In this document: positions 8,751 to 51,245 of the stretch, piece by piece
Layout of the letters: each line of letters starts with the position of its first letter
Numbering within the stretch: the first letter of the stretch is position 1
Source of the DNA: Blastopirellula retiformator
Lineage (GTDB): Bacteria > Planctomycetota > Planctomycetia > Pirellulales > Pirellulaceae
Length of the DNA stretch: 64,000 bases
Assembly: GCF_007859755.1 (NCBI RefSeq)
Contig: NZ_SJPF01000001.1
Span: forward strand, 1,352,082 to 1,416,081
Direction: 5' to 3'
Position numbers and translations under genes: made by a program
Notes under the pieces: generated by a model
What the model saw: only the letters and a program-made list of their open reading frames with translations
Told to the model about the DNA's origin: nothing
Database searches by the model: none

Positions 8751-10280
8751 CTAGTTACCGCCAGGGGACGGTTGCGACAGTTTCTCCAGCGCTTCGCCGA
8801 CCGTAAAGCTGGCCGGTTCTTGACGCGGCGGGAAGTCGACGAAGGTTTCCATTAGGTTGCCGACAAGTGCCTGGGAGGGAACCAGGACGAAGGCTCGGCG
8901 ATACCACCAGTCGTTGTACCCGATCCCGTCTTGCGCCTTCTCAAACGGATCAACCTTCAGGTCGAAGATGAGCGGAGCGCGAAGCGTGGTGAAAGGATTC
9001 CGCCAGACGTCCAGGCCAGTCGCTTCCTGGATCATGAAGTGTGCCTTCCAGCGATCGTAGCGCAGCGCCAGCAGGTCGCCATCGTCCGAAAAGTAGAAGA
9101 ACTCCTTGCGAGCCGAAGGACCTTTGCCGGCCAGATACTCGCCTTGGTCGTAGCCGTCGAGGTGGACCTTGAAGGTTTTGTCCCCCGCCTTATGACCCTG
9201 CAGCAGTTTCTCTTTGATGTCGGCGTCGCCGGCGGCGGCCGCGAGCGTCGGAAACCAGTCTTCGGCCGAGAAGATGTCGGTGAAGATGCTGCCTGGTTCG
9301 ACGGTACCTGGCCAGCGGATCAGGGCTGGCACGCGCCAACCGCCGTCCCAGTTGGTGTTCTTTTCGCCGCGGAACGGCGTCATCCCGGCATCGGGCCACA
9401 AGCAGACCATCGGTCCGTTGTCGGTGGTGTAGACGACGATCGTGTTTTCGGTCAGGCCGGCGTCATCCAGATAGTCAAGCAACTGACCAATGATCTTGTC
9501 GTGATAGACTATGCCGTCGGCGTAAAAGCCGAGGCCTGTCTTGCCGGCGTCTTCCGGTTTGACGTGAGTAAAGTTGTGCATGTGGGTCGTGTTGAACCAG
9601 ACAAAGAACGGCTTGTCGGCCACTTTCGCGCGATCGATGAAGTCGGTCGTCGCGGCGAGGACCTCTTCGTCGATCGTTTCCATCCGCTTCTTGGTCAGCG
9701 GGCCGGTGTCTTCGATCTTGCCATCGGCCGACGACTTGATCACGCCGCGAGGGCCGAACTTCTTTTTGAATTCAGGATTCGTCGGGTAGTCAGGGTTTTC
9801 GGGCTCTTCTTCGGCGTTCAGGTGATAGAGGTTGCCCAGGAACTCGTCGAAGCCGTGATTGGTCGGCAGAAACTCGTCTCTATCGCCCAGGTGATTCTTG
9901 CCGAACTGGCCAGTGACGTAGCCCATCGGCTTCAGCATTTCGGCGAGCGTCGGATCTTCTTTTTGCAGGCCAAGATCGGCGCCTGGCAGACCGACTTTCG
10001 ATAGCCCCGTGCGGAACGGCAACTGGCCGGTGATAAAGGCCGAGCGTCCAGCGGTGCAGCTTTGCTGGGCGTAGTAGGACATGAACTTGCCCCCTTTTTT
10101 CGCCAGTCGATCGATGTTGGGAGTTGAGTAGCCCATCATTCCTTGATGATAGGTGCTGATGTTCCACATCCCGACATCGTCTCCCATGATGAAGAGGATG
10201 TTCGGCTTGTCGGCGGCGTATGCGCTTGCCGTAATGAGCAAGGCGATACAAAGAGATGCGAGGCGAAGTCGCCGGATCAT
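8751..10280 (-). CDS. Secreted sulfatase (CTAGR-type active site)
   Basis: A 509-residue alkaline-phosphatase-superfamily sulfatase, expected to cleave sulfate esters after export. Signal peptide at residues 1-22 (ending ASAYA). Metal-binding NILFIMGDDVG follows, then the formylglycine motif C75-T-A-G-R, a variant of the usual C-x-P-x-R in which Ala replaces Pro. The GQFGKNHLGD and YTTDNGP segments complete the sulfatase core. GGGAG lies 6 bases before the ATG. Natural substrate cannot be read from sequence. It converges with nothing downstream except repeats and is divergent from the next sulfatase gene. Confidence 0.93.
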   Translation of the reverse strand: MIRRLRLASLCIALLITASAYAADKPNILFIMGDDVGMWNISTYHQGMMGYSTPNIDRLAKKGGKFMSYYAQQSCTAGRSAFITGQLPFRTGLSKVGLPGADLGLQKEDPTLAEMLKPMGYVTGQFGKNHLGDRDEFLPTNHGFDEFLGNLYHLNAEEEPENPDYPTNPEFKKKFGPRGVIKSSADGKIEDTGPLTKKRMETIDEEVLAATTDFIDRAKVADKPFFVWFNTTHMHNFTHVKPEDAGKTGLGFYADGIVYHDKIIGQLLDYLDDAGLTENTIVVYTTDNGPMVCLWPDAGMTPFRGEKNTNWDGGWRVPALIRWPGTVEPGSIFTDIFSAEDWFPTLAAAAGDADIKEKLLQGHKAGDKTFKVHLDGYDQGEYLAGKGPSARKEFFYFSDDGDLLALRYDRWKAHFMIQEATGLDVWRNPFTTLRAPLIFDLKVDPFEKAQDGIGYNDWWYRRAFVLVPSQALVGNLMETFVDFPPRQEPASFTVGEALEKLSQPSPGGN

Positions 10281-10606
10281 GACTTTCTCCCGGGTGAAGG
10301 CGATGAAGCGAAGCGTGATTTGGGCCGAGATGGACCGCTTGTTGATATCTTACGATTAGCGAAACGGCGAAAGCCACGAGAAAATGGCAAATTTTGTTGA
10401 CACTTCAAGTGGCGAGTGAGGTAGGTGCGTCGCAACGATGAGAGCGAGGTGGGGTGATGACAACTCGCGACGGGGCGTTAGCGAAAAGAAACACGTCGCC
10501 TGGAGAATCGCGAAGTCATCGTTACATGCTTATTCGTATTGATGAAGCGTCGCGCTGTGGTATGAGCGATCGCAGTCCCGAGGCAAGTGACGCTTTACGG
10601 ACCTAG
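10281..10606. other. Non-coding gap between two divergent sulfatase genes
   Basis: Upstream region of both sulfatase genes, together with the repeat that follows it. I see no convincing reading frame and no clear hairpin. It must hold the promoter of the minus-strand sulfatase, but no confident -10/-35 pair could be chosen. Confidence 0.4.
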
Positions 10607-10755
10607 CTGCCTGTTGAAAAATGCCATCGTGGCATTTTCCAACCTCGCCAGGCTCGGAGCATAGCTCTTCGCGGCTCGCAAAATAACGACTTACGTCGTT
10701 ATTTTGGGATCGCATCCGTGCGATCACGCAGTCCGTCGAGAAGATCAACGGACTG
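10607..10755. repeat. 149-bp MITE-like element, copy A
   Basis: Full-length copy of a 149-bp element also at 28570-28718, 45352-45466 (internal deletion) and 49478-49626 (inverted). Ends are CTGCCTGTTGA and, on the other strand, CAGTCCGTTGA. CTAG stands immediately outside both ends (10603-10606 and 10756-10759), as expected for a 4-bp target duplication. Two internal hairpins are visible: AAAATGCCA/TGGCATTTT near the left end and AAAATAACGAC/GTCGTTATTTT in the middle. Reading frames across it are by-products of the repeat. Confidence 0.92.
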
Positions 10756-10927
10756 CTAGCAGATGCAAAATGTATGTCGCGCTCAGTGTGCGAGTCGCCG
10801 ACGCAACTCAAAGCGACCCATTCTCGCGGCTTCTAGCGGAATCGGGCAAAATTTGACCCGCACTCTCTCTTCAGCGACAATCGAAGCCTCTCCTGCCCAG
10901 CATCTTCCTCTGACTTGGATATGCAAA

Positions 10928-12349
10928 ATGCCTGTTTCGTTTGCTCGTTTGCTTCTCGTGGCGTTCTTTGCCGGACTCACTGTTTCTTCCGCCGCGGCCG
11001 CCAAGCCGAACTTCGTCATTATTAACATCGACGACCTGGGTTATGCCGATATCGAGCCGTTTGGCTCCGAAATCAATCGGACCCCCAACCTCAACGCGAT
11101 GGCGGACGAGGGGATGAAGTTGACCTGTTTTTACGCGGCGCCGGTTTGCTCGCCATCGCGGGCGTCGCTGATGACCGGCTCTTATCCGAAGCGGAGTCTG
11201 TCTATTCCGCACGTTCTCTTTCCGGCGTATGCCGAGGGACTCAGTCCCGACGAAGTGACGATCGCCGAGCTGATGAAAGAGCAGGGGTATGCGACCGGAA
11301 TCATCGGCAAGTGGCACCTAGGCGATCAGCCGGAGTACCTGCCGACGAAGCAAGGATTTGATTACTACTATGGCCTCCCTTACTCCAATGATATGGGCCC
11401 GGCCAAAGATGGCGTGAAGAGCAATTACGGCGCTCCGCTGCCCAAGACCAAAGGAAAAGGACAACCGCCGCTTCCGCTAATGCGGAACGAAACCGTGCTG
11501 CAGCGCGTGTTGGCGAAGGACCAGGCCGAACTGGTCGCCAACTACACGCATGAAGCGATCAAATTTATCCGCGATCATCAGGAGGAGCCGTTCTTCCTTT
11601 ACCTGCCGCACTCGGCGGTTCACTTTCCGCTCTACCCGGGCGACGCGTTCCGCGGCAAGAACGAGCATGGGCTCTACAGCGACTGGGTCGAGGAAGTCGA
11701 CTGGAGCGTCGGGCAGGTGCTGCAGACGCTGAAAGATCTCGGCCTGGATCAGCGCACGCTGGTGATCTTTACCTCGGACAATGGCGGATCGCTACATCAC
11801 GGAGCGGTGAACAAGCCGCTGCGAGCGGGCAAAGGAACAACCTTTGAAGGTGGGATGCGGGTGCCGACGATCGTCCGCTGGCCTGGTAAAGTGCCGGCCG
11901 GTAGCAGCAGCGACGAAGTGGTCGGCATGATCGACGTGTTGCCGACGCTGGTTCGTTTGGCCGGCGGACAGGCGCCGACCGACCGCAAGCTGGACGGCGG
12001 CGACATCGGCGCGATTCTGGCTGGCGAGAAAGACGCCAAGAGCCCGCACGACGCCTACTACTTCTATCGCGGTTTTAAACTGCAAGCGGTTCGTAGCGGT
12101 CCGTGGAAGCTGCTGCTGAAGCAGGGACAACTCTACAACCTGAAAGAAGACATCAGCGAGTCGAAGAACGTCGCCGCCGAACATGCCGACATCGTCGAAC
12201 GCTTGCAAAAGCTGGCGACGGCGATGGACAGCGATCTGGGCGTACAGAAGATCGGCCCTGGATGTCGTCCGCTCGGCAAGGTGAAGGACCCGCAACCGCT
12301 GATCGACTACGACGGCACGATCCGAGCGGGGTTTGAACCGCAGAAGTAG
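10928..12349 (+). CDS. Secreted sulfatase (CSPSR-type)
   Basis: A 473-residue exported sulfatase. The ATG at 10928 precedes a good signal peptide (MPVSFARLLLVAFFAGLTVS, cleaved after about SSAAAA). The frame is open further upstream but that part runs into the repeat. Core motifs: FVIINIDDLGYADIEPFG with metal-binding aspartates, canonical formylglycine motif C74-S-P-S-R-A, GIIGKWHLGDQPEYLP, and FTSDNGGSLHHG. This is the arylsulfatase type common in planctomycetes for degrading sulfated polysaccharides. Followed by repeat copies rather than a clear terminator. Confidence 0.94.
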   Translation: MPVSFARLLLVAFFAGLTVSSAAAAKPNFVIINIDDLGYADIEPFGSEINRTPNLNAMADEGMKLTCFYAAPVCSPSRASLMTGSYPKRSLSIPHVLFPAYAEGLSPDEVTIAELMKEQGYATGIIGKWHLGDQPEYLPTKQGFDYYYGLPYSNDMGPAKDGVKSNYGAPLPKTKGKGQPPLPLMRNETVLQRVLAKDQAELVANYTHEAIKFIRDHQEEPFFLYLPHSAVHFPLYPGDAFRGKNEHGLYSDWVEEVDWSVGQVLQTLKDLGLDQRTLVIFTSDNGGSLHHGAVNKPLRAGKGTTFEGGMRVPTIVRWPGKVPAGSSSDEVVGMIDVLPTLVRLAGGQAPTDRKLDGGDIGAILAGEKDAKSPHDAYYFYRGFKLQAVRSGPWKLLLKQGQLYNLKEDISESKNVAAEHADIVERLQKLATAMDSDLGVQKIGPGCRPLGKVKDPQPLIDYDGTIRAGFEPQK

Positions 12350-25626: not shown

Positions 25627-26505
25627 TTACTGATCGCGCAAAACGTCATTGAACGCCCTGGCTGCAGGACCGGCAAATCGATCCTGCGCCTGCACCAAGT
25701 GCAACGGCCGCGGAATTTTCAGGTCCGCCAGGCGAATCGCCTTCAGCTCGCCGGAGGTCAACTCCGCTTCGACCGACAACCGCGACACGATCGCCAGTCC
25801 GACGCCAGCGGCGACCACATGCTTGATCGCTTCGGTGCTGCTAAGGGTCATTAGCTCTTTCACTTCGACGCCGCACAGCGAGATCGCCTGCTCTTGGACG
25901 GCCCGGGTGCCGGATCCTGATTCTCGCAGTACAAAGCTCTGCCCGCTTAGGTCGGTCGCTTTCACTTTCCGCTTCTTCACCAGCGGATGCGAGGCCGCAG
26001 CGACGACCACCAACTCATCTTCGGCGAAGCTTGTCGAAGTAAGGCCCGCTTCTTCCACAAACCCTTCGGTCAGGCCCAGGTCAACGCGATAGTCGAGCAC
26101 CTGCTGATGGACGAAGGCGGTGTTGCCGACCGAGACATGGACGCGAATCTGAGGATGCTGCTGATGGAAGCGGGCCAAAACCTGCGGCAATAGATACCCG
26201 GCGATTGTGGTGCTGGCGCCGACGAACAGCTCGCCGCGGCTCACTTCTCGCAATTGGGCGACCGCCTGTTCCGCTTCCGCTTCGAGCGTGAAGATTTTTC
26301 GGGCATATTCGCTCAGCAGTTTGCCGACCGTCGTCAGTCGCAGTCCCTTGCCGGTGCGGTCGAACAATTGCTCGCCCAACGCTGCTTCAAACTCTTTCAG
26401 CTGTTTCGACGCCGCAGGCTGACTGATCAGTAATTGCTCGGCGCCCAGGCTGACGCTGCCGGTTTCGGCGATGGCGTGAAAGATCGCCAAGTGGTGCAAA
26501 TTCAT
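25627..26505 (-). CDS. LysR-family transcriptional regulator
   Basis: A 292-residue regulator. Winged helix-turn-helix at residues 1-60 (MNLHHLAIFHAIAETGSVSL, then QLLISQPAASKQLKEFEAAL), followed by a two-lobed periplasmic-binding-type effector domain (about 90-290). It is transcribed divergently from the sulfite reductase gene across 119 bp of AT-rich DNA containing TTATG three times (26521, 26539, 26552). LysR genes usually control the divergent neighbour, so a CysB-like or Cbl-like role in sulfur assimilation is likely, but the inducer cannot be inferred. Confidence 0.92.
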   Translation of the reverse strand: MNLHHLAIFHAIAETGSVSLGAEQLLISQPAASKQLKEFEAALGEQLFDRTGKGLRLTTVGKLLSEYARKIFTLEAEAEQAVAQLREVSRGELFVGASTTIAGYLLPQVLARFHQQHPQIRVHVSVGNTAFVHQQVLDYRVDLGLTEGFVEEAGLTSTSFAEDELVVVAAASHPLVKKRKVKATDLSGQSFVLRESGSGTRAVQEQAISLCGVEVKELMTLSSTEAIKHVVAAGVGLAIVSRLSVEAELTSGELKAIRLADLKIPRPLHLVQAQDRFAGPAARAFNDVLRDQ

Positions 26506-26624
26506 GGATATAGACTCAGGTTATGCGTTTAATGAATTTTATGTCTTTGATTTATGTGGGGCAAGTCTCGATATTTGCAAACGTGGAAAGCAACTTCTCT
26601 TGGTGACCCGGAAAGAGCAAATCG

Positions 26625-28352
26625 ATGAGCCAGACGACTCTCAGCAAAATCGAACTTCTCAAGCAAGGCAGCCGCCAGCTGCGGGGGACGCTAGCGGAGG
26701 AATTGCAGAACGAGCGTCCCGACTTTTCGGGCGACGCGATTCAGATGCTCAAGTACCACGGCAGCTATCAGCAGGACGACCGCGACGTCCGCAAGCAGAA
26801 GAACGCCGATGGTACGAAAAAGCAGAAAGCTTACTCGTGCCTGATCCGGACCGTAGTTCCCGGCGGAAAGGTGACGGCCGAGCAGTTTCTGGCCGAGCTC
26901 GATTTGTGCGATCGCCTGGGGAACGGCACGTTGCGGATTACCACCCGGCAAGGCTTTCAGCTGCACGGCGTGCTCAAGAGCGACCTGAAGGAGACGATCC
27001 GCACGATCAACCAGATCAAACTTTCGACCTACGCCGCTTGCGGCGACGTCAGCCGCAATGTGATGTGCTGCCCGGTGCCGTACAAAAACAACCCGGTTCG
27101 TGAGCAGATGCAAGGGGTCGCGCGGCAGATCTCCGTCCACTTCCGGCCGCAGTCCTCCTCTTACTACGAACTCTGGCTGACCGACGAAGAAGGAAACAAG
27201 GAAAATCACGCCGAGTTCCAACCGGTCGCCGAGCCTATCTATGGAGAGCGGTATTTGCCGCGGAAGTTCAAGTTTGGCGTCGCCGAGCCGACCGACAACT
27301 GCATCGACGTCTACACGCAGGACGTCGGTCTGCTGGCGATTATCGAAGCGGACCAGGTGGTCGGCTACAACGTGATCGTCGGCGGCGGGATGGGCAATAC
27401 CCCCTCGGCCGACAAGACCTTTCCGCGCCTTGGCGACGAGCTGACGTTCGCCACTCCCGAAAACGTGATCGCCGTTTGCGAAGCGATCGTCAAAGTGCAA
27501 CGCGACTTTGGCAATCGCGACGATCGCAAGCGAGCCCGGCTGAAGTACGTGCTGCATGATTGGGGCGTCGCCAAGTTCAAAGCGAAGGTCGAAGAGTACT
27601 ACGGCGAACCGCTACCGGAACCGCGACACGCGCCCGTGACTGGCATCGACGATCATCTCGGCTGGCATGTCCAGGGAGACGGTAAGCTGTTCTACGGAAT
27701 CAACATCGAGAACGGCCGCGTCGCCGATGTCGACCAAGTGCGAATCAAAAGCGGTCTGCGAGCGATCCTCCAGCGGTACGGAATGGAGACTCGCCTGACG
27801 CCGCTGCAGTCGGTGATCTTGTGCGACGTCGATCCGAAAGACCGCCGCGACATCGAAACGCTGCTGCAGGAGTACGGGATGAAATCGGTCGACGAGCTGT
27901 CGCTCGCCCGGCGGTTTGCCGTCGCTTGCCCCGCGCTGCCGACCTGTGGTCTGGCGATTACCGAGTCAGAGCGGGTCATGCCGCAGCTGATTGATCAGCT
28001 TGAGCCGGTGCTGGCCGAGCATGGACTCGCCGAGTCGCAGATTTCGATTCGGATGACCGGGTGCCCCAATGGGTGTGCCCGGCCGTATATGGCGGACATC
28101 GGCCTGGTCGGCAAGTCGGTCGGCAAATACACAATCTACCTGGGGGGGAATCCGCAAGGAACGCGAATCGGCTTCGTCTATCAAGAGGCGACGCCACTGG
28201 CAGAGATTCCGGCCCAGCTGTCGCCGCTGTTGGCTCGTTACACGGCGGAAAAAGAGGGCGAAGAGGGATTCGGCGACTACTGCGCCCGCATTGGACGCGA
28301 TGCATTGTTGGCCAAGGTTGGCCAGTCGGAAGCGGTCACACTTCAAAACTAA
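26625..28352 (+). CDS. sir: Assimilatory sulfite reductase, sirohaem/4Fe-4S hemoprotein
   Basis: A 575-residue cytoplasmic enzyme reducing sulfite to sulfide. The N-terminal half shows LKYHGSYQQDDRDVR, NGTLRITTRQGFQLHGVL and YAACGDVSRNVMCCPVP, the SiR/NiR repeat type closest to plant and CysI sulfite reductases. The four cluster cysteines are C435 and C441 (CPALPTC) and C480 and C484 (TGCPNGCARPYMAD). The electron donor is probably ferredoxin or a flavoprotein encoded elsewhere, as no cysJ-like gene is adjacent. Good ribosome site GGAAAGAG before the ATG. A nitrite reductase is the alternative, but the CPALPTCGLAITESER motif favours sulfite. Confidence 0.9.
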   Translation: MSQTTLSKIELLKQGSRQLRGTLAEELQNERPDFSGDAIQMLKYHGSYQQDDRDVRKQKNADGTKKQKAYSCLIRTVVPGGKVTAEQFLAELDLCDRLGNGTLRITTRQGFQLHGVLKSDLKETIRTINQIKLSTYAACGDVSRNVMCCPVPYKNNPVREQMQGVARQISVHFRPQSSSYYELWLTDEEGNKENHAEFQPVAEPIYGERYLPRKFKFGVAEPTDNCIDVYTQDVGLLAIIEADQVVGYNVIVGGGMGNTPSADKTFPRLGDELTFATPENVIAVCEAIVKVQRDFGNRDDRKRARLKYVLHDWGVAKFKAKVEEYYGEPLPEPRHAPVTGIDDHLGWHVQGDGKLFYGINIENGRVADVDQVRIKSGLRAILQRYGMETRLTPLQSVILCDVDPKDRRDIETLLQEYGMKSVDELSLARRFAVACPALPTCGLAITESERVMPQLIDQLEPVLAEHGLAESQISIRMTGCPNGCARPYMADIGLVGKSVGKYTIYLGGNPQGTRIGFVYQEATPLAEIPAQLSPLLARYTAEKEGEEGFGDYCARIGRDALLAKVGQSEAVTLQN

Positions 28353-28371
28353 GATCAGGGAATGGATAACG

Positions 28372-28569
28372 ATGAAACGCTATTACTCGCTTTGGAAATC
28401 GACCTGGTGGTTGTGGATGCTGATCATCGGCGGCGCCTTTTATCTGTCGACGCTCAGTAACGTTCTGATGTGCGTCAGCTTGGTCTACCTACCAATTTGC
28501 GTCGTCATCTTTTTATGGTTCGGCTTGGTGCGTTACGACGATCAGGGGAATCCGCTCGACATCGTCTAA
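28372..28569 (+). CDS. Small membrane protein downstream of sulfite reductase
   Basis: A 65-residue protein with two hydrophobic helices (about residues 11-27 and 29-50) and a polar C-terminus VRYDDQGNPLDIV. It starts 19 bp after the sulfite reductase stop, so it belongs to the same transcript. The TAA stop is part of the CTAA target repeat of the element that follows. No known family recognised. Confidence 0.7.
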   Translation: MKRYYSLWKSTWWLWMLIIGGAFYLSTLSNVLMCVSLVYLPICVVIFLWFGLVRYDDQGNPLDIV

Positions 28570-28718
28570 CAGCCTGTTGAAAAATGCCATCGTGGCATTT
28601 TCCAACCTCGCCAGGCTCAGAGCATAGCTCTTCGCGGCTCTCAAAATAACGACTTACGTCGTTATTTTGGGATCGCATCCGTGCGATCACGCAGTCCATC
28701 GAGGAAATCAACGGACTG
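28570..28718. repeat. 149-bp MITE-like element, copy B
   Basis: Full-length copy, same orientation as copy A and nearly identical. CTAA flanks both ends (28566-28569 and 28719-28722). The left CTAA contains the TAA stop of the small membrane protein. Its hairpins could act as terminator of the sulfite reductase transcript. Confidence 0.92.
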
Positions 28719-28805
28719 CTAAGCATACGTCGTTGTAATCGGCGTGTTGCGCGTTCTGTATGAACCCGCAGCGCGAAAGCTTGAGAAGCCTGCCGGCGTC
28801 TTCTT

Positions 28806-29363
28806 TTATTGGCCAAGTACCGGCGGCGGCAATACGAAGCCTCCATCGGGTAGCGTCTCGGGACGCATTACCGGGGGCAGTAGTTGCGGTTGATTTTGCG
28901 GCGTCACGTTGACGGCCGGATCGACCTGCGTGGCGAGCGGCGTGACGTAACCGGCCTGGGCGTTGGAGCGAAGTTGCTCGGCGCGGCTCCGCAGTTCTTC
29001 CGGCGGCACGATCCGCCGCGGTTCCATCGCGAAGTCGAGATCCCGAGTGTCCCGAATTTCCCACGGCCAGAGGTTCTCGCTAAAGAACTCGATCACCGGG
29101 TACTCATACCAGGGGGGCTTGAAGGTGTGCAGCTGCGACACCGACTCGTAGCCATGTTTCTCGAGCCGGATCTCGCGCGTGCCATAATGGACGTAATTGG
29201 CCGAGACCGGCGTCACGCCGATTTCCTGATCGTCGACGTACACCACCGCCCCCGGAGGGCTGGTGCGGATATTCATCCGGCGACGTACGCAACCGGTGCT
29301 GGCGCAGGCGATTAGCAGCGTCAGCAGCAGAAAGTTACGAAAATGGAAAGTCCGACGGTTCAT
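28806..29363 (-). CDS. PEGA-domain lipoprotein
   Basis: A 185-residue envelope lipoprotein. N-terminal signal with lipobox ending ASTGC (acylated Cys about residue 25). A PEGA domain follows at about residues 28-95: MNIRTSPPGAVVYVDDQEIG, then TPVSANYVHYGTREIRLEKH, matching the PEGA pattern of short beta strands. The tail is Pro/Gln-rich. PEGA domains are thought to bind surface layers or peptidoglycan-associated proteins. Alone on its strand between sulfite reductase and the phosphatase. Confidence 0.88.
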   Translation of the reverse strand: MNRRTFHFRNFLLLTLLIACASTGCVRRRMNIRTSPPGAVVYVDDQEIGVTPVSANYVHYGTREIRLEKHGYESVSQLHTFKPPWYEYPVIEFFSENLWPWEIRDTRDLDFAMEPRRIVPPEELRSRAEQLRSNAQAGYVTPLATQVDPAVNVTPQNQPQLLPPVMRPETLPDGGFVLPPPVLGQ

Positions 29364-29579
29364 GCCGATGGGCCGATTCCGATCTAAATTAGGTTGAAGC
29401 GGGGGCGAAGTTTAGCAATCTGCTGCGGCAGCGGCTAGACGAAAACGGGAATCGAAGTTAAATCTTTTCGTCGTAAGTACTTGTTGACGCAAAAATTCCG
29501 CTTTAATATCGCAGGTTTCCGTAAATAATAGGTAGGGCCGCTTTCTGGCGGAAATTGTTGGACCGGAGAAGAGCGACGC

Positions 29580-30929
29580 ATGTCGGTTGAGTCCCATACG
29601 TGGCATAACACGATTCAGATCGCTGCGCTCAGCGATGTGGGGATGCGCCGTAGCAACAACCAGGACCACTACGGCGTCATTCTCTCGGCCAATTGGGACG
29701 AATGGCGAAAGCGGGGGCACCTGTTTGTCGTCGCCGACGGCATGGGAGCCCACGCCGCTGGCGAACTGGCGAGCGAAATCGCGGTTGACCGCGTCGGCCA
29801 TCTCTATCGCAAGTACATCGAAAAAACGCCTCCCGATGCGCTCGTCACCGCCGTCGAAGAAGCCAATGCGATCATCAATCGCAAAGGAGAAGAGAACTCG
29901 GCGTTCCACAAAATGGGGACGACCTGTAGTTCGCTGTTGATCTTGCCGCAAGGTGCGATCGTCTCGCATGTGGGGGATAGTCGCGTCTATCGGCTGCGGG
30001 GCGATAAGCTCGAGCAACTCTCGTTCGACCATTCGATGGCCTGGGAAATTCGGGCTGCGACCGCGGGGCTCGACGCCGCCGACGTGTACGACGCGATTCC
30101 CAAGAACGTCATCACTCGTTCGCTTGGCCCAGGGCCGACGGTCGAAGTCGATCTGGAAGGTCCCTTCCCGCTGCAGGTGGGCGATACGTTCTTCGTCTGC
30201 AGCGACGGAGCGACCGGCCCCTTGCGTAACGACGAAATCGCCATCATTCTGAAAACGCTGGATCCGGCGCACGCCGTCCAACTGATGGTCGACTTGGCGA
30301 ACCTGCGCGGGGGGCCTGATAACATTACCGTTATCGTGGTGAAGATCACCGGCGAGGCGATCACCCAAGATCCCACCCACAGCGAACCGCTGATCATGGA
30401 AGAGACTCGCCCGGCGAATCCTCCTTCCCGCCAGAAGCTGCGAAACCCGCCCTGGACCGTTTGGGCGCTGCTATTGCTGTTTGGGTTTGCGACGGTGTCG
30501 CTGGCCTACATGCAGCGTCCCTTCGAGGCGGTCATCGCCGGGCTGGCGGCGTTTGCGGCCTTCGTATTTGGGGCGGTCTATATGTATTCAGGCCCGGTTG
30601 AAGATGAGCCGATCAAGGCGACTCCCAAGCGCCGGCTTGGTCGCGGACCGTATGAGGAAACCCCCTGCAACACGACCGAGAACGTCGCTCGCAACCTGGC
30701 GGCGACCGTGGTCGAACTCCGCGAGGCGTCGGAAACCAACCAATGGAAGCTCGACTGGGATCGGGTCAACCAACTGCGCAGTCAGGCCCAGCTCGAGCTA
30801 GCAGCGGGCGACTACTTTAACGCCACGCGGCTCTTTTTGATCTGCATCGGGGCGATGATGGCACAGATTCGGATGCAGAGCAAAAAGAAGAACCCGCTGG
30901 AAGATGAGTCGAAGGTCGACTTGATTTAG
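29580..30929 (+). CDS. PP2C-family serine/threonine phosphatase with membrane segments
   Basis: A 449-residue protein. The PPM/PP2C phosphatase domain spans about residues 10-260 with metal-binding motifs SDVGMRRSNNQD, VVADGMGAHAAGE, VGDSRVYRLRGD, CSDGATGPL and GGPDNITVIVV. Two hydrophobic segments (about 288-305 and 315-335) anchor it in the membrane, and a helical cytoplasmic tail follows. It probably reverses Hanks-type kinase phosphorylation, common in planctomycetes, but no kinase gene is adjacent. Separated by 114 bp from the downstream permease gene on the same strand. Confidence 0.92.
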   Translation: MSVESHTWHNTIQIAALSDVGMRRSNNQDHYGVILSANWDEWRKRGHLFVVADGMGAHAAGELASEIAVDRVGHLYRKYIEKTPPDALVTAVEEANAIINRKGEENSAFHKMGTTCSSLLILPQGAIVSHVGDSRVYRLRGDKLEQLSFDHSMAWEIRAATAGLDAADVYDAIPKNVITRSLGPGPTVEVDLEGPFPLQVGDTFFVCSDGATGPLRNDEIAIILKTLDPAHAVQLMVDLANLRGGPDNITVIVVKITGEAITQDPTHSEPLIMEETRPANPPSRQKLRNPPWTVWALLLLFGFATVSLAYMQRPFEAVIAGLAAFAAFVFGAVYMYSGPVEDEPIKATPKRRLGRGPYEETPCNTTENVARNLAATVVELREASETNQWKLDWDRVNQLRSQAQLELAAGDYFNATRLFLICIGAMMAQIRMQSKKKNPLEDESKVDLI

Positions 30930-31043
30930 GTCGCGGCTCTACCGGTTTGGGGCGTTCGCTTGCTGGGAACGAAACTGTCGTTCCGTCGTCTGCGGGAACT
31001 TGCTAGAGTTCGCACGAATTCGCCCGTTTCTTTTCGACCCGCA

Positions 31044-32213
31044 ATGCGAATCATTACCCGCTACATCTTGTGGGAGATCCTCAAGATCTTCTTTTTGGCG
31101 CTCGGCGCGCTGACGTTGCTGATCGTTTTGGTCGGCGTCGTGCAACAAGCGCTGCGCGAAGGTCTGGGCCCTGGTCCGATCGCCCGGATCATTCCGTACA
31201 TGATTCCCGATGCGCTTCGGTTTTCGATTCCCGGCACTATCCTGTTCGCCTCCTGCAGCGTTTACGGGCGGCTGTCGTCCGGCAACGAACTGGCCGCGCT
31301 AAAGGCCTCCGGCGTCTCTCCGCTAGTAGCGCTGTGGCCCGCCTACGCGGTCGCCCTGGTACTGTCGATCGTTTGCGTTTGGCTGAACGATGTTGGCGTC
31401 TCCTGGGGCAGCCAAGGGGTGCGTCGGGTGCTGGTGCAATCGTTCGAGGAAATCGCCTATGGCATGCTCCGCACGCACAAGTCGTTTAGCAACGAGAAGC
31501 TCTCAATCCTGGTCCGCGAAGTCGACGGCCGGCGGCTCATGCGTCCGCAAATTGTCGCCGCGGCGACTCCTACTTCGCCGCAACTGTTGATCTCGGCCGC
31601 CGAAGCGGAACTGCATAGCGACGAGAATAACCAGTTGATTATTTCGCTGATTGACAGCCGGATCGAAAGCGACGGATCAAGCCAAGGGGTCTTCGAGCAT
31701 CCTGGCCAACTCGACCATATCATCTCGCTCAATGACGAGCTTTCGGCCGAAAGTCGTAGTCCGTCGAAGATCGCATCGTCCCGTATCGCCACCGTGCTGG
31801 GGGAAGAGCGTGAACTGGTCAAGAGCCTGGAGGAGGCGGACGTCGCTTGGAACAGTTTCTCGCAGTTGGCGACCTTGGACGACGAGCAAAGGGCCCCCCG
31901 GATTGATGCGTCCTTCGTCGATTGGCAGATCAATCGTCTGCGGACCGAGCCTTGGCGGCGATGGGCGAACGGCTTCAGCTGTTTGTTCTTTGTGCTGCTG
32001 GGCGTGCCGCTAGCGATCAAGCAGCGGAACCCTGATTTTGTGACCAGCTTTTTTATGGCGTTTCTGCCGGTCTTGCTTGTCTTCTACCCGCTGCTAGCGT
32101 TCGCCGTCGATCGAGCGAAAGATGGGGCGCTGCCGCCTCAGGCGGTGTGGATCGGCAACCTGGCCCTGTTGGCGGTCAGTCTCTACTACCTGCGGAAGGT
32201 CTGGCGCTACTAG
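31044..32213 (+). CDS. LptF/LptG-family permease
   Basis: A 389-residue YjgP/YjgQ-type inner-membrane protein of the lipopolysaccharide export ABC complex LptB2FG. The ATG at 31044 gives the typical N-terminus MRIITRYILWEILKIFFLA. Three N-terminal helices (about 15-37, 60-80, 97-115), a large periplasmic beta domain (about 125-305), and three C-terminal helices (about 312-385) match the family. It carries the GNELAALKASGVSP segment seen in LptF/G. Only one of the two paralogues is here; F or G cannot be decided. Confidence 0.88.
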   Translation: MRIITRYILWEILKIFFLALGALTLLIVLVGVVQQALREGLGPGPIARIIPYMIPDALRFSIPGTILFASCSVYGRLSSGNELAALKASGVSPLVALWPAYAVALVLSIVCVWLNDVGVSWGSQGVRRVLVQSFEEIAYGMLRTHKSFSNEKLSILVREVDGRRLMRPQIVAAATPTSPQLLISAAEAELHSDENNQLIISLIDSRIESDGSSQGVFEHPGQLDHIISLNDELSAESRSPSKIASSRIATVLGEERELVKSLEEADVAWNSFSQLATLDDEQRAPRIDASFVDWQINRLRTEPWRRWANGFSCLFFVLLGVPLAIKQRNPDFVTSFFMAFLPVLLVFYPLLAFAVDRAKDGALPPQAVWIGNLALLAVSLYYLRKVWRY

Positions 32214-45283: not shown

Positions 45284-45317
45284 AAAAAAGCCGACGCACC
45301 CGGGGAGGAGGTCGGCC
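45284..45317 (-). terminator. Rho-independent terminator
   Basis: On the minus strand GCCGAC (45311-45316 complement), a loop and GTCGGC (45290-45295 complement), followed by TTTTTTATT. It ends the transcript of the gene at 45467-46141 after the MITE. Confidence 0.7.
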
Positions 45318-45351
45318 TTTCGTAGGTTAACGTTCGTCGCACTGCGACTAT

Positions 45352-45466
45352 TTGTCGGTTGAAAAATGCCATCGTGGCATTTTTCAACCTCGCCAGGCTC
45401 AGAGCGTAGCTCTTCGCGGCTCGCATCCGTGCGATCACGCAGTCCGTCGAAAAGATCAACGGACTG
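45352..45466. repeat. MITE-like element, copy C (34-bp internal deletion)
   Basis: Same family as copies A, B and D but 115 bp, because the central hairpin (AAAATAACGAC/GTCGTTATTTT) and a few neighbouring bases are missing. The deletion lies between two TCGCA direct repeats. CTAT flanks both ends (45348-45351, 45467-45470). The match continues to CTATTTGT on both sides because the left terminal bases TTGTCG differ from the family. The right CTAT holds the stop codon of the adjoining gene. Confidence 0.88.
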
Positions 45467-47994: not shown

Positions 47995-48933
47995 CTACGG
48001 CAGGTTCACGACCGCGCCGTCATCCCGAATGCCCAGTAGTTGGTAAACGCCCATGCCGCTGGCGCTGGCATAGATCTGGCTGTGAAGGCCGTCGCCGCCA
48101 AACCAACCATTGGCGAGTCCATTCTTGTCAAATTCGATGTCTTCCGAAATGAACTGCACCGAACCGTCGCAGAAAGCGAAGAACGCGCCGCCCGGGTGCT
48201 GGCTGGTGAAGCCCCAGTGCGCGGTGTGGTTGATCGGGAACGAGACGCAACGCGACAGCGTGTTCTGGCGTTCCAGATAATCGTTACCTGGCGTGCCGGC
48301 CCAGAAAGCCCAACCGCGCGGGCCCGAATCATAACCGCCCGCCTTGGCCGAAACCTCGCCCAGGGCGAAGGTATTCGAGAGGCCGTCAGTGATGGCCGAG
48401 AAGTTCATCCCTTCGTAGTTGATCGCACCGGTGTTGGCCGCCTTGTCTTGATCCCAACCGGCCTGGCCGTAACCGCGGCTGGCGGCGTAGCTGATCACGC
48501 CATATTCGACGTTGTCGTGCGTGTAGGTTTCCGGAGCGACCGTCGAGGGGCAGCGGAGGCTGTTGATCACCGTTCCCAGAGCCAGCGTCGCGTTGGCGTC
48601 GGGCGTGCCGCTGACCGCTTGCGGGAAAGTGTAGCCGGTCACGCCGGCGGCGTCGGCTAGGTTGTTTTGTTCCAGGTACGGCAGCAATTGGGCGGCCCAA
48701 CCCCAGAACGTGTTGTTCCGGCGGTAGGAAGGCATTTCTAGGTAGGTGTCGTGATAGGTGTGCGTCGCCAGGACGGCTTGCTTCAGATTGTTACGGCACG
48801 ACATGCGCCGCGCCGCCTCGCGGGCTTGTTGGACGGCAGGCAAGAGCAATGCGATCAAGACGCCGATGATGGCGATCACGACCAAGAGTTCAACAAGAGT
48901 GAAGCCGCGTTGACTTCGAATAGAATGAGTCAT
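47995..48933 (-). CDS. DUF1559 prepilin-like protein (module 1)
   Basis: A 312-residue planctomycete-specific secreted protein. Start at 48933 gives MTHSIRSQRGFTLVELLVV, a type IV prepilin-like signal with methylation helix, followed by LLPAVQQAREAARRMSCRNN. The C-terminal region has TDGLSNTFALGEVSA and FAFCDGSVQFISEDI typical of DUF1559/SBP_bac_10. Likely surface pseudopilin. Followed by its lipoprotein partner. Confidence 0.93.
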   Translation of the reverse strand: MTHSIRSQRGFTLVELLVVIAIIGVLIALLLPAVQQAREAARRMSCRNNLKQAVLATHTYHDTYLEMPSYRRNNTFWGWAAQLLPYLEQNNLADAAGVTGYTFPQAVSGTPDANATLALGTVINSLRCPSTVAPETYTHDNVEYGVISYAASRGYGQAGWDQDKAANTGAINYEGMNFSAITDGLSNTFALGEVSAKAGGYDSGPRGWAFWAGTPGNDYLERQNTLSRCVSFPINHTAHWGFTSQHPGGAFFAFCDGSVQFISEDIEFDKNGLANGWFGGDGLHSQIYASASGMGVYQLLGIRDDGAVVNLP

Positions 48934-49477
48934 GGGTGGCAGTTCTCCAAAGGAACGAGCGGATGAAAAAATAGGAGATGGATGGTCCGTAGACTGAAGT
49001 GCCGCTTCTCTGTCCACGTTGTTGCTGCCCAAGTCATGGCGCTCTTGTGCGTGTCGCTCCGCTATGAGGAGTGGGATAACTCATATCGCGTCATGATTGA
49101 TTGCGTGATTGCTAATCCACTTTTCGTACCAGTCACGAACTTTTCTAAATGAAACAGGAAAAAATCCTGCATCCAGGGGGCGTGGTTGTGTTGGTTGGGG
49201 CTGGCGAGTTGTATCAATTCCTCGCCTTCCTGGAGTATTTGATATTCCGACCTTTGGGCGTCCTCGACTGGAGGCAAATTCTGTGCACAGTAAATAGGCG
49301 GTGGGCGCCTGTTTTTTCGTCAAGACGCGAGAAACCCGCCATTCGGCGCGCAAGGATGCGATGAATTAGCGCGCACAAGGGAGGAAGGGCTTGGTGGATG
49401 GTGTGCGGGCACAGACTGGAAGTCAGATGGCGTTGAACAAGGGAGCGTGGTGCATTACTGCAAGAAATGTCTCCTAA
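48934..49477. other. AT-richer non-coding gap
   Basis: About 540 bp upstream of the DUF1559 gene at 47995-48933. It should hold that gene's promoter. Short frames on both strands look unlike proteins. A small hairpin CAGGA..TCCTG lies near 49153-49167. Base composition is noticeably less GC-rich than the genes around it, as in 51246-51663. Confidence 0.45.
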
Positions 49478-49626
49478 CAGTCCGTTGATTTTCTCGACGG
49501 ACTGCGTGATCGCACGGATGCGATCCCAAAATAACGACGTAAGTCGTTATTTTGCGAGCCGCGAAGAGCTATGCTCTGAGCCTGGCGAGGTTGAAAAATG
49601 CCACGATGGCATTTTTCAACAGGCAG
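49478..49626. repeat. 149-bp MITE-like element, copy D (inverted)
   Basis: Full-length copy in the opposite orientation to A-C. Ends CAGTCCGTTGA and, on the other strand, CTGCCTGTTGA. CTAA stands outside both ends (49474-49477 and 49627-49630). The hairpins AAAAATGCCA/TGGCATTTTT and AAAATAACGAC/GTCGTTATTTT are intact. Confidence 0.92.
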
Positions 49627-50288: not shown

Positions 50289-51245
50289 CTATGGCAGCGA
50301 AACCACCGCGCCGTCGTCTCGGATGCCGAGCAGCTGGTAGACGCCCATGCCGTCGGCTTTGGTGTAGATGTCGGCGTGGAGTGCGTCTCCACCAAACCAG
50401 CCATTGGCGGCGCCATTGTTGTCGAAGTCGATGTTCTCCGAAATGAACTGCACCGATCCGTCGCAGAACACGAAGTAGGCGCCCTCAGTGTGTGCGCTGG
50501 CGAAGTTGAAGTAGTCGGTCAGGTTCAGCGGATACGAAACGTTCCGCGAGATCGACGCCTGGCGGGCAATGTAGGCGGTATCTTGACCAGCGGTCGGTTC
50601 GGGCATCGCAGCCCAATAGCTCCAGCCGCGAGGACCATCTTTCCAGCCTTGGTACCGCGCCGAGGCTTCGCCGACGGCGAACGTGTTGGAAAGTCCGTCC
50701 AAGATGTCCGAGAACCCAAGGCCGTCGATGTTGATGGCGCCGGTGTTGGCCGCTTTGTCGCGTGGCCAGCCAGCTTGACCATAGCCGCGACTGGCGGCAT
50801 AGCTGCAGACCCCGTATTCAAGACCATCGGCCGCCTCGTAGACTTCGGGGGCGGTTGACGAAGGACAGAGGTAGCCGGTGATGACGGTACCTATCGCTTC
50901 TTGCGCTGCGGTACCTGCGGTGCCGTCGGAGACCTGCGCCAGCGAATAGTCGTTGATGCCGATCGTGTCGTAGACGTTGTCTTGTTCCAGGAACGGCAGC
51001 AGGGCCGCACTCCAAGCCCAGTAGACGTCATCCTGATACGCCGGCATTTTGCCGAACGTGTCATGATGGTTGTGCAGGGCCAAGCCGATTTGCTTGAGGT
51101 TGTTGCGGCATTGAGTGCGACGGGCCGCTTCGCGAGCTTGTTGCACGGCCGGCAAGAGCAACGCGATCAAGACGCCGATGATGGCGATGACGACAAGTAA
51201 CTCCACAAGCGTGAAGCCGGATCGGGAAGAAGGATTCGAACGCAT
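50289..51245 (-). CDS. DUF1559 prepilin-like protein (module 2)
   Basis: A 318-residue paralogue of 47995-48933. N-terminus MRSNPSSRSGFTLVELLVVI followed by IALLLPAVQQAREAARRTQC. Further shared blocks: SYAASRGYGQAGW, DGLSNTFAVGEASARYQG, FVFCDGSVQFISENIDF and a C-terminal GMGVYQLLGIRDDGAVVSLP. The near-identical C-termini of the two copies indicate a recent duplication of the DUF1559+lipoprotein module. Confidence 0.94.
   Translation of the reverse strand: MRSNPSSRSGFTLVELLVVIAIIGVLIALLLPAVQQAREAARRTQCRNNLKQIGLALHNHHDTFGKMPAYQDDVYWAWSAALLPFLEQDNVYDTIGINDYSLAQVSDGTAGTAAQEAIGTVITGYLCPSSTAPEVYEAADGLEYGVCSYAASRGYGQAGWPRDKAANTGAINIDGLGFSDILDGLSNTFAVGEASARYQGWKDGPRGWSYWAAMPEPTAGQDTAYIARQASISRNVSYPLNLTDYFNFASAHTEGAYFVFCDGSVQFISENIDFDNNGAANGWFGGDALHADIYTKADGMGVYQLLGIRDDGAVVSLP

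Follow-up and report, generated by a model that had tools for sequence, protein, structure and literature searches.

The ERIC elements of enterobacteria are strongly folded, DDE transposases leave terminal inverted repeats and target duplications, and a 4-bp duplication of the YTAR type is a mark of the IS5 group. In excerpts of published accounts, ERIC is credited with 711 copies in Photorhabdus luminescens, and the transcripts of Correia elements are described as processed by RNase III, with effects on neighbours (both PMC10969869). Excerpts likewise give duplications of 7-13 bp for the IS4 subgroups with a complete YREK motif and of 4 for IS701 (PMC2266710), and tabulate ISPse1, an element of the IS1182 family from Paracoccus, with a 4-bp direct repeat (PMC3281130). 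Here we describe a 149-bp repeat of the planctomycete Blastopirellula retiformator. It is a MITE family, ordinary in kind; its uncommon traits are a fold preserved through paired changes in the genomes of an order and an excess of copies at stop codons. Its insertions are of the YTAR type and, judging from sequence comparison, we consider it likely that the copies are moved in trans by an IS1182-like DDE transposase. Within the part of the hits that was covered, a literature search on MITEs in planctomycetes or Blastopirellula, and on IS1182 with a MITE or target duplication, returned no title on this element.

The stretch of DNA that was analysed, referred to below as the window, is 64,000 nucleotides long and holds four copies. 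Their positions, and the parts of the first copy, are as follows.

10607..10755, + strand: MITE copy 1, 149 bp; 159.7 bits with covariance model R1
10603..10606, no strand: left target duplication of copy 1, CTAG
10756..10759, no strand: right target duplication of copy 1, CTAG
10613..10643, + strand: hairpin H1 of copy 1 (GTTGAAAAATGCC..GGCATTTTCCAAC); insertion site of an IS4-family element in other copies
10647..10675, + strand: hairpin H2 region of copy 1, imperfect there and placed by alignment to L112
10678..10707, + strand: hairpin H3 of copy 1 (CAAAATAACGAC..GTCGTTATTTTG)
10708..10725, + strand: hairpin H4 of copy 1 (GATCGCATCCGTGCGATC)
10729..10755, + strand: hairpin H5 of copy 1; the right terminal repeat is its end
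28570..28718, + strand: MITE copy 2, 149 bp; left duplication CTAA at 28566-28569
45352..45466, + strand: MITE copy 3, 115 bp, with duplication CTAT; hairpin H3 deleted
49478..49626, - strand: MITE copy 4, 149 bp; duplication CTAA on the + strand

The initial annotation had placed four copies at 10607-10755, 28570-28718, 45352-45466 and, inverted, 49478-49626, and all of these are confirmed, as are the length of exactly 149 bp in three of them (copies 1, 2 and 4) and the identical four bases on both sides of each copy (CTAG, CTAA, CTAT and CTAA, copy 4 being read on the + strand). Copy 3 measures only 115 bp because one internal hairpin, H3, has been deleted. The ends CWGCCTGTTGA and CAGTCCGTTGA, which had been given for all the copies, hold for three of the four, but the left end of the copy at 45352 is TTGTCGGTTGA. 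Divergent sulfatase genes (8751-10280 and 10763-12349) lie on either side of copy 1, and the second of these open reading frames (ORFs) begins three bases past its right duplication. Elsewhere in the window, DUF1559 genes with prepilin-type N-termini are found at 47995-49032 and 50289-51245, parts of which match dozens of places in the congener G002; upstream of copy 3, at about 45285-45333, the block AAAAAGCCGACGCACCCGGGGAGGAGGTCGGCCTTTCGTAGGTTAACG is the same in G002, amid sequence that has diverged.

The family is dispersed throughout the genome (6,196,617 bases in 10 contigs were searched): 292 places match the 31-base GTTGAAAAATGCCATCGTGGCATTTTCCAAC with at most three mismatches, and the control search with the reversed pattern gave none. 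In 400 contiguous kb (C2:500001-900000, taken as 20 contiguous stretches that were not chosen for copies), 27 copies score at least 82 bits with the covariance model, one split copy being counted once; from this we would extrapolate to about 420 copies per genome, or ~1 percent of the genome. A total of 161 raw pattern hits in the window and fetched stretches yielded 80 distinct copies read with both ends, after 79 hits to the opposite strand of the first hairpin, which is palindromic, and two copies without a recognised right end were set aside. These 80 are a non-random sample (30 loci are best matches, 20 stretches were mostly chosen near CAGNCNGTTGA places and 20 are contiguous), among which 70 copies are 149 bp long and seven 115 bp. 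Exact 4-bp duplications flank 56 of the 80, most commonly CTAG (19), CTAA (12) and TTAG (11), as against a mean of 14.3 and a maximum of 27 in 1000 shuffles of the pairing; 24 copies have no exact duplication, and at least three of the four bases agree in 72. Among the seventy copies of 149 bp, the median distance from the consensus is 3 mismatches and the largest is 10, and this low divergence suggests a recent burst of copies in the B. retiformator genome. The earlier reading was right in taking the family for mobile and non-autonomous, with YTAR-type duplications of 4 bp: at 149 bp the element is too short to code for a transposase, 11-bp terminal inverted repeats bound three of the four window copies, the target is duplicated, and the copies are many and dispersed, one of them at a site that is empty elsewhere.

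This site is that of copy 2, which is empty in all three congeners: its flanks match G001, G002 and G003, with no element match between them. In G002 an element is present at the place that matches copy 3, so the family was probably active also before those species parted. In Blastopirellula marina DSM 3645, a locus with a transposase fragment (L092) is identical over 3336 bp to L175 of the congener G001. Across the order, model R1 finds matches in 34 of 296 genomes at E<=1e-5, as the outcome of a search with strict filters in which 10 candidates were scored per genome and only matches at that threshold were kept. One subfamily, that of G037 (L227, L230-L233), has the same hairpins with H1 and H5 changed together and ends of about CAGCCTGGGGAA / CAGGCCGGGGAA; for these GGGGA-type ends (CAGCCTGGGGAA) no mover was found.

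The interior of the element consists of five hairpins in a row (H1-H5). Copy 1 folds far better than shuffled sequences on both strands (z -6.3 and -6.5), as do copies from G037 (z -10.8) and G039 (z -7.4). Among 33 aligned copies from seven genomes, 149 cells are double-changed against 46.1 after shuffling, and the covariation score is 0.216, where slid structures reach no more than 0.075; with one copy from each of 12 genomes, five of them not used in building the model, the corresponding values are 42 against 12.1 and 0.205 against at most 0.087. Both structures come from the single member L112, an advantage for the unslid version in the number of paired cells, and kinship inflates the shuffle controls. 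When pairs are counted instead of cells, 22 show double change in the 33 copies against 15.1 shuffled (1/500) and 19 in the 12 genomes against 8.7 (0/500). The number of further standard pair types did not exceed that of shuffles in either set (288/500 reached it for the 33 copies and 102/500 for the 12 genomes). The alignments exclude copies without both ends by pattern, as well as L114 and L234, which have both ends and were removed by a filter (GGCTC or GCTCACAAA); the alignment of hairpin H4 is poor for the G045 and second G037 rows. Stems thus change in pairs between genera, so that, as far as these alignments tell, the fold itself is kept. Its upkeep could concern RNA in 3' untranslated regions or single-stranded DNA during transposition, or could stem from palindrome-correcting mutation. 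Paired changes may also arise from replication copying one arm off the other; because such template switching yields them too, selection on the fold is not proved by them and is one possible cause. No Rfam family exceeds its gathering score in the window, and the sole match in five sources is RNase P at L112:1852-2294, outside the element.

As YTAR carries TAA or TAG, insertion at a gene's own stop codon would leave the protein unchanged. Of the 80 copies, 67 have a YTAR tetranucleotide next to one or both ends and 900 bp or more of flank in each direction, and these we compared with 1110 control YTAR sites. The tetranucleotide forms the stop codon of a frame that is open over at least 100 codons in 34 of the 67 copies and in 281 of the 1110 controls (P 2e-5), a comparison in which ORFs stand for genes, controls come only from C2:500001-900000 and unlike duplications give two chances. 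With frame thresholds of 80, 150 and 200 codons, the counts are 38, 26 and 22 of 67 against 375, 152 and 108 of 1110. Only 18 of the 67 copies, as against 635 of the 1110 control sites, fall within an ORF of at least 120 codons of the joined site, and outside ORFs the duplication is a stop codon in 28 of 49 copies and 125 of 475 controls (P 2e-5). Stop-codon positions are therefore over-represented, by insertion preference, by survival, or by both. Copy 2 of the window is a case in point: its left CTAA (28566-28569) holds the stop codon of ORF 28069-28569, and in G001 and G002 the aligned frame of that ORF ends nearby without the element.

Paired changes in every hairpin across genera, the spread of R1 matches through the order and the excess at stop codons speak for a structured RNA, or 3' untranslated-region module, that is chiefly selected and rides on mobile ends, and so is more than a parasite. 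We nevertheless regard this as unlikely, as the family seems to have expanded recently in this genome, none of the three congeners has window copy 2, the element has no Rfam match, and template switching is an alternative source of the paired changes; in addition, a terminator scan of window positions 26000-32000, whose rules look for a T run following the stem, marked no terminator in copy 2. It is a tentative and rather doubtful extension of that idea that IS1182-like ends have carried a five-hairpin RNA module through the order, and that the stop codon within YTAR brings it to the 3' ends of genes with the protein unharmed, where it would serve as a mobile, ready-made 3' untranslated region. 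Far less probable still is the reading as a REP-like repeat with a tyrosine (RAYT) transposase as mover, since terminal inverted repeats and 4-bp target duplications such as DDE transposases leave are present here, even though the family is palindromic, often extragenic and present in hundreds of copies. Planctomycetes are among the phyla named with REPs in an excerpt of one account, but REPs are described there as small palindromes of 20-40 bp (PMC3733652); against the single short palindrome without target duplication that is typical of REP/RAYT systems, we find duplications and five hairpins. A MITE moved by a DDE transposase remains our preferred reading, and the question is then which family supplies the mover.

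An IS with the MITE's own ends would seem the natural candidate, and the initial annotation had proposed a search for one; here this approach misleads. The genome does contain a 1709-bp unit with MITE ends and CTAA or CTAG duplications, inside which lies the IS4-family transposase P0001 (217 bits with the NCBIfam model IS4_1, cut-off 115; YREK motif YSYRWTVEIFFRFYK, identified by eye). Since copy 1 matches this unit at 28/28 and 126/134 bases, the MITE could be taken for its deletion derivative, made of positions 1-28 and 1576-1709 joined at a 13-bp repeat, with the IS4-family element as parent. We rejected this parent after reading the junctions and now consider it hardly credible. The IS4-family element is 1551 bp long with its own ends, CAAT[AC]C[CT]GTTCGGCACG, and sits in hairpin H1 between 9-bp repeats, CC[AC]TCGTGG, within the 7-13 bp of IS4 subgroups; 149 + 1551 + 9 makes 1709. 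Of nine P0001 places in this genome, seven have both IS4 ends in H1, one (L109) has one end, and one (L104) lies elsewhere. The seven are found in both orientations (L102, L103, L105 and L107 one way, L106, L108 and L110 the opposite way), with 9-bp repeats that, read by eye, are exact in six and have a single difference in one; at L105 the MITE is cut short on its right side. The element also exists without any MITE, at L104 and at the congener locus L169 with the repeat GGACGGGGG, and at the congener locus L173, where that motif adjoins it on one side and no exact repeat is present. Moreover, G037, G039 and G045 have a MITE-like element and no P0001 match at E<=0.001. With its own ends and 9-bp repeats inside H1, the IS4-family element is an intruder and the MITE its landing site, not its offspring; a unit with perfect MITE ends that holds an intruder instead of the parent is a trap for searches of this kind. 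At L104, L169 and L173 the intruder lies beside GGGGACGGGGG motifs next to A-rich runs, apparently a second target that is used repeatedly.

Other transposases were considered and set aside. ISAs1 (P0003) occurs near CAGCC-type ends and was rejected on its own ends, CACGGCGATTGCGCCA; an ISAs1-family IS with these ends is multi-copy, at about ten loci of this genome such as L032-L040. The IS1182-type P0004 (333.9 bits) is close to a MITE at L047, where the only such ends in the locus are those of that MITE, and P0005 scores as IS1380.

The initial annotation had attributed the family to an IS5-type transposase. This came near, as the duplications of the MITE are CTAN/YTAR and 4 bp long and as IS5_4 is the second-best NCBIfam model for the seven scanned transposases of the group of P0002, whose ISs have these ends and target duplications (92-124 bits, below the cut-off of 140). 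Yet the IS1182 model (NF033551) is best in all seven (163-218 bits, below its cut-off of 270), above every IS5 model, and all IS5 models stay under their cut-offs. The one true IS5-family transposase examined in this genome, L031, scores 213.7 bits with IS5_3 (cut-off 110) and was likewise rejected, as its locus has no CAGYCYGTTGA-type end at up to one mismatch. A mover from the IS5 group in the strict sense is therefore improbable. With IS1182 first, IS5_4 second and both under their curated cut-offs, the group of the putative mover is, by these models, IS1182-like and related to IS5.

P0002 itself lies at C1:769726-770961 of this genome and exceeds the Pfam cut-offs for DUF772, DDE_Tnp_1 and DDE_Tnp_1_6. 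Its IS copy (C1:769726-771001), the one such copy found in this genome, ends on the right with CTAG followed by CAGCCCGTTGAACTATTGGG at C1:771001 and is truncated on the left, where it adjoins an IS3-family transposase frame (L195:195-1307, 244.5 bits, cut-off 160). The search for transposase families in this genome covered PF01609 and PF13751, and another family could share the ends. Relatives of P0002 at E<=1e-40 were found in 29 of 296 genomes of the order, our own included, with at most six candidates scored per genome, so that absence is a soft result. Facing ends were recognised by pattern in 15 of 30 fetched loci of these relatives, two of the 15 being from one genome, and the other 15, our own copy included, are without them. 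The ends are CAGCCCGTTGA or near it and lie 1406-1540 bp apart, with one at 1069. Their YTAR-type duplications are exact in 11 of the 15 (CTAG, CTAA, TTAG, ATAG) and one base off in four, whereas shuffling the right-hand duplications gave 5.0 exact on average and at least 11 in 11 of 10000 shuffles; the end pattern itself required YTAR with at most two mismatches, so YTAR is partly chosen, for which the shuffle allows.

The MITE has inserted at YTAR-type tetranucleotides, which were duplicated, and the putative mover that would act on it in trans is the DDE transposase of an IS that shares its ends (CAGCCCGTTGA) and its type of target. The MITE and these ISs share only their terminal 15-20 bases, and the five-hairpin interior has no kinship to the IS1182-like IS; the identity of the mover, which we consider probable, thus rests on ends, target and co-occurrence. 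The MITE and P0002-like proteins occur together in eight genomes, a mild excess over the 3.3 expected (P about 0.01, with no correction for kinship and assuming the same 296 genomes in both order searches), and no P0002-like match (E<=1e-40, at most six candidates per genome) was found in 26 of the 34 MITE-bearing genomes.

The family adds to the planctomycetes a high-copy, structured MITE with a probable mover, whose fold is preserved from genus to genus as the copies move, and whose stop-codon sites exceed availability. This makes it testable whether bacterial MITEs persist as makers of safe 3' ends. Among known systems, the putative mover is like the IS1182 family in its 4-bp duplication and its best NCBIfam model, although at 1406-1540 bp (one shortened, 1069) it differs in length from ISPse1, at 1653 bp. 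With the IS5 group of the IS5 family it has the 4-bp YTAR duplication in common, but IS5 models score below IS1182 and below cut-off; the IS4 family is represented by an intruder that lies inside the MITE and is not its mover. By description only, the MITE may be likened to the Correia elements of Neisseria, which are also high-copy MITEs, in another host, and to ERIC, also a MITE of similar size with hundreds of copies in some genomes, from which the planctomycete element differs in its 4-bp YTAR-type duplication and its five hairpins in a row.
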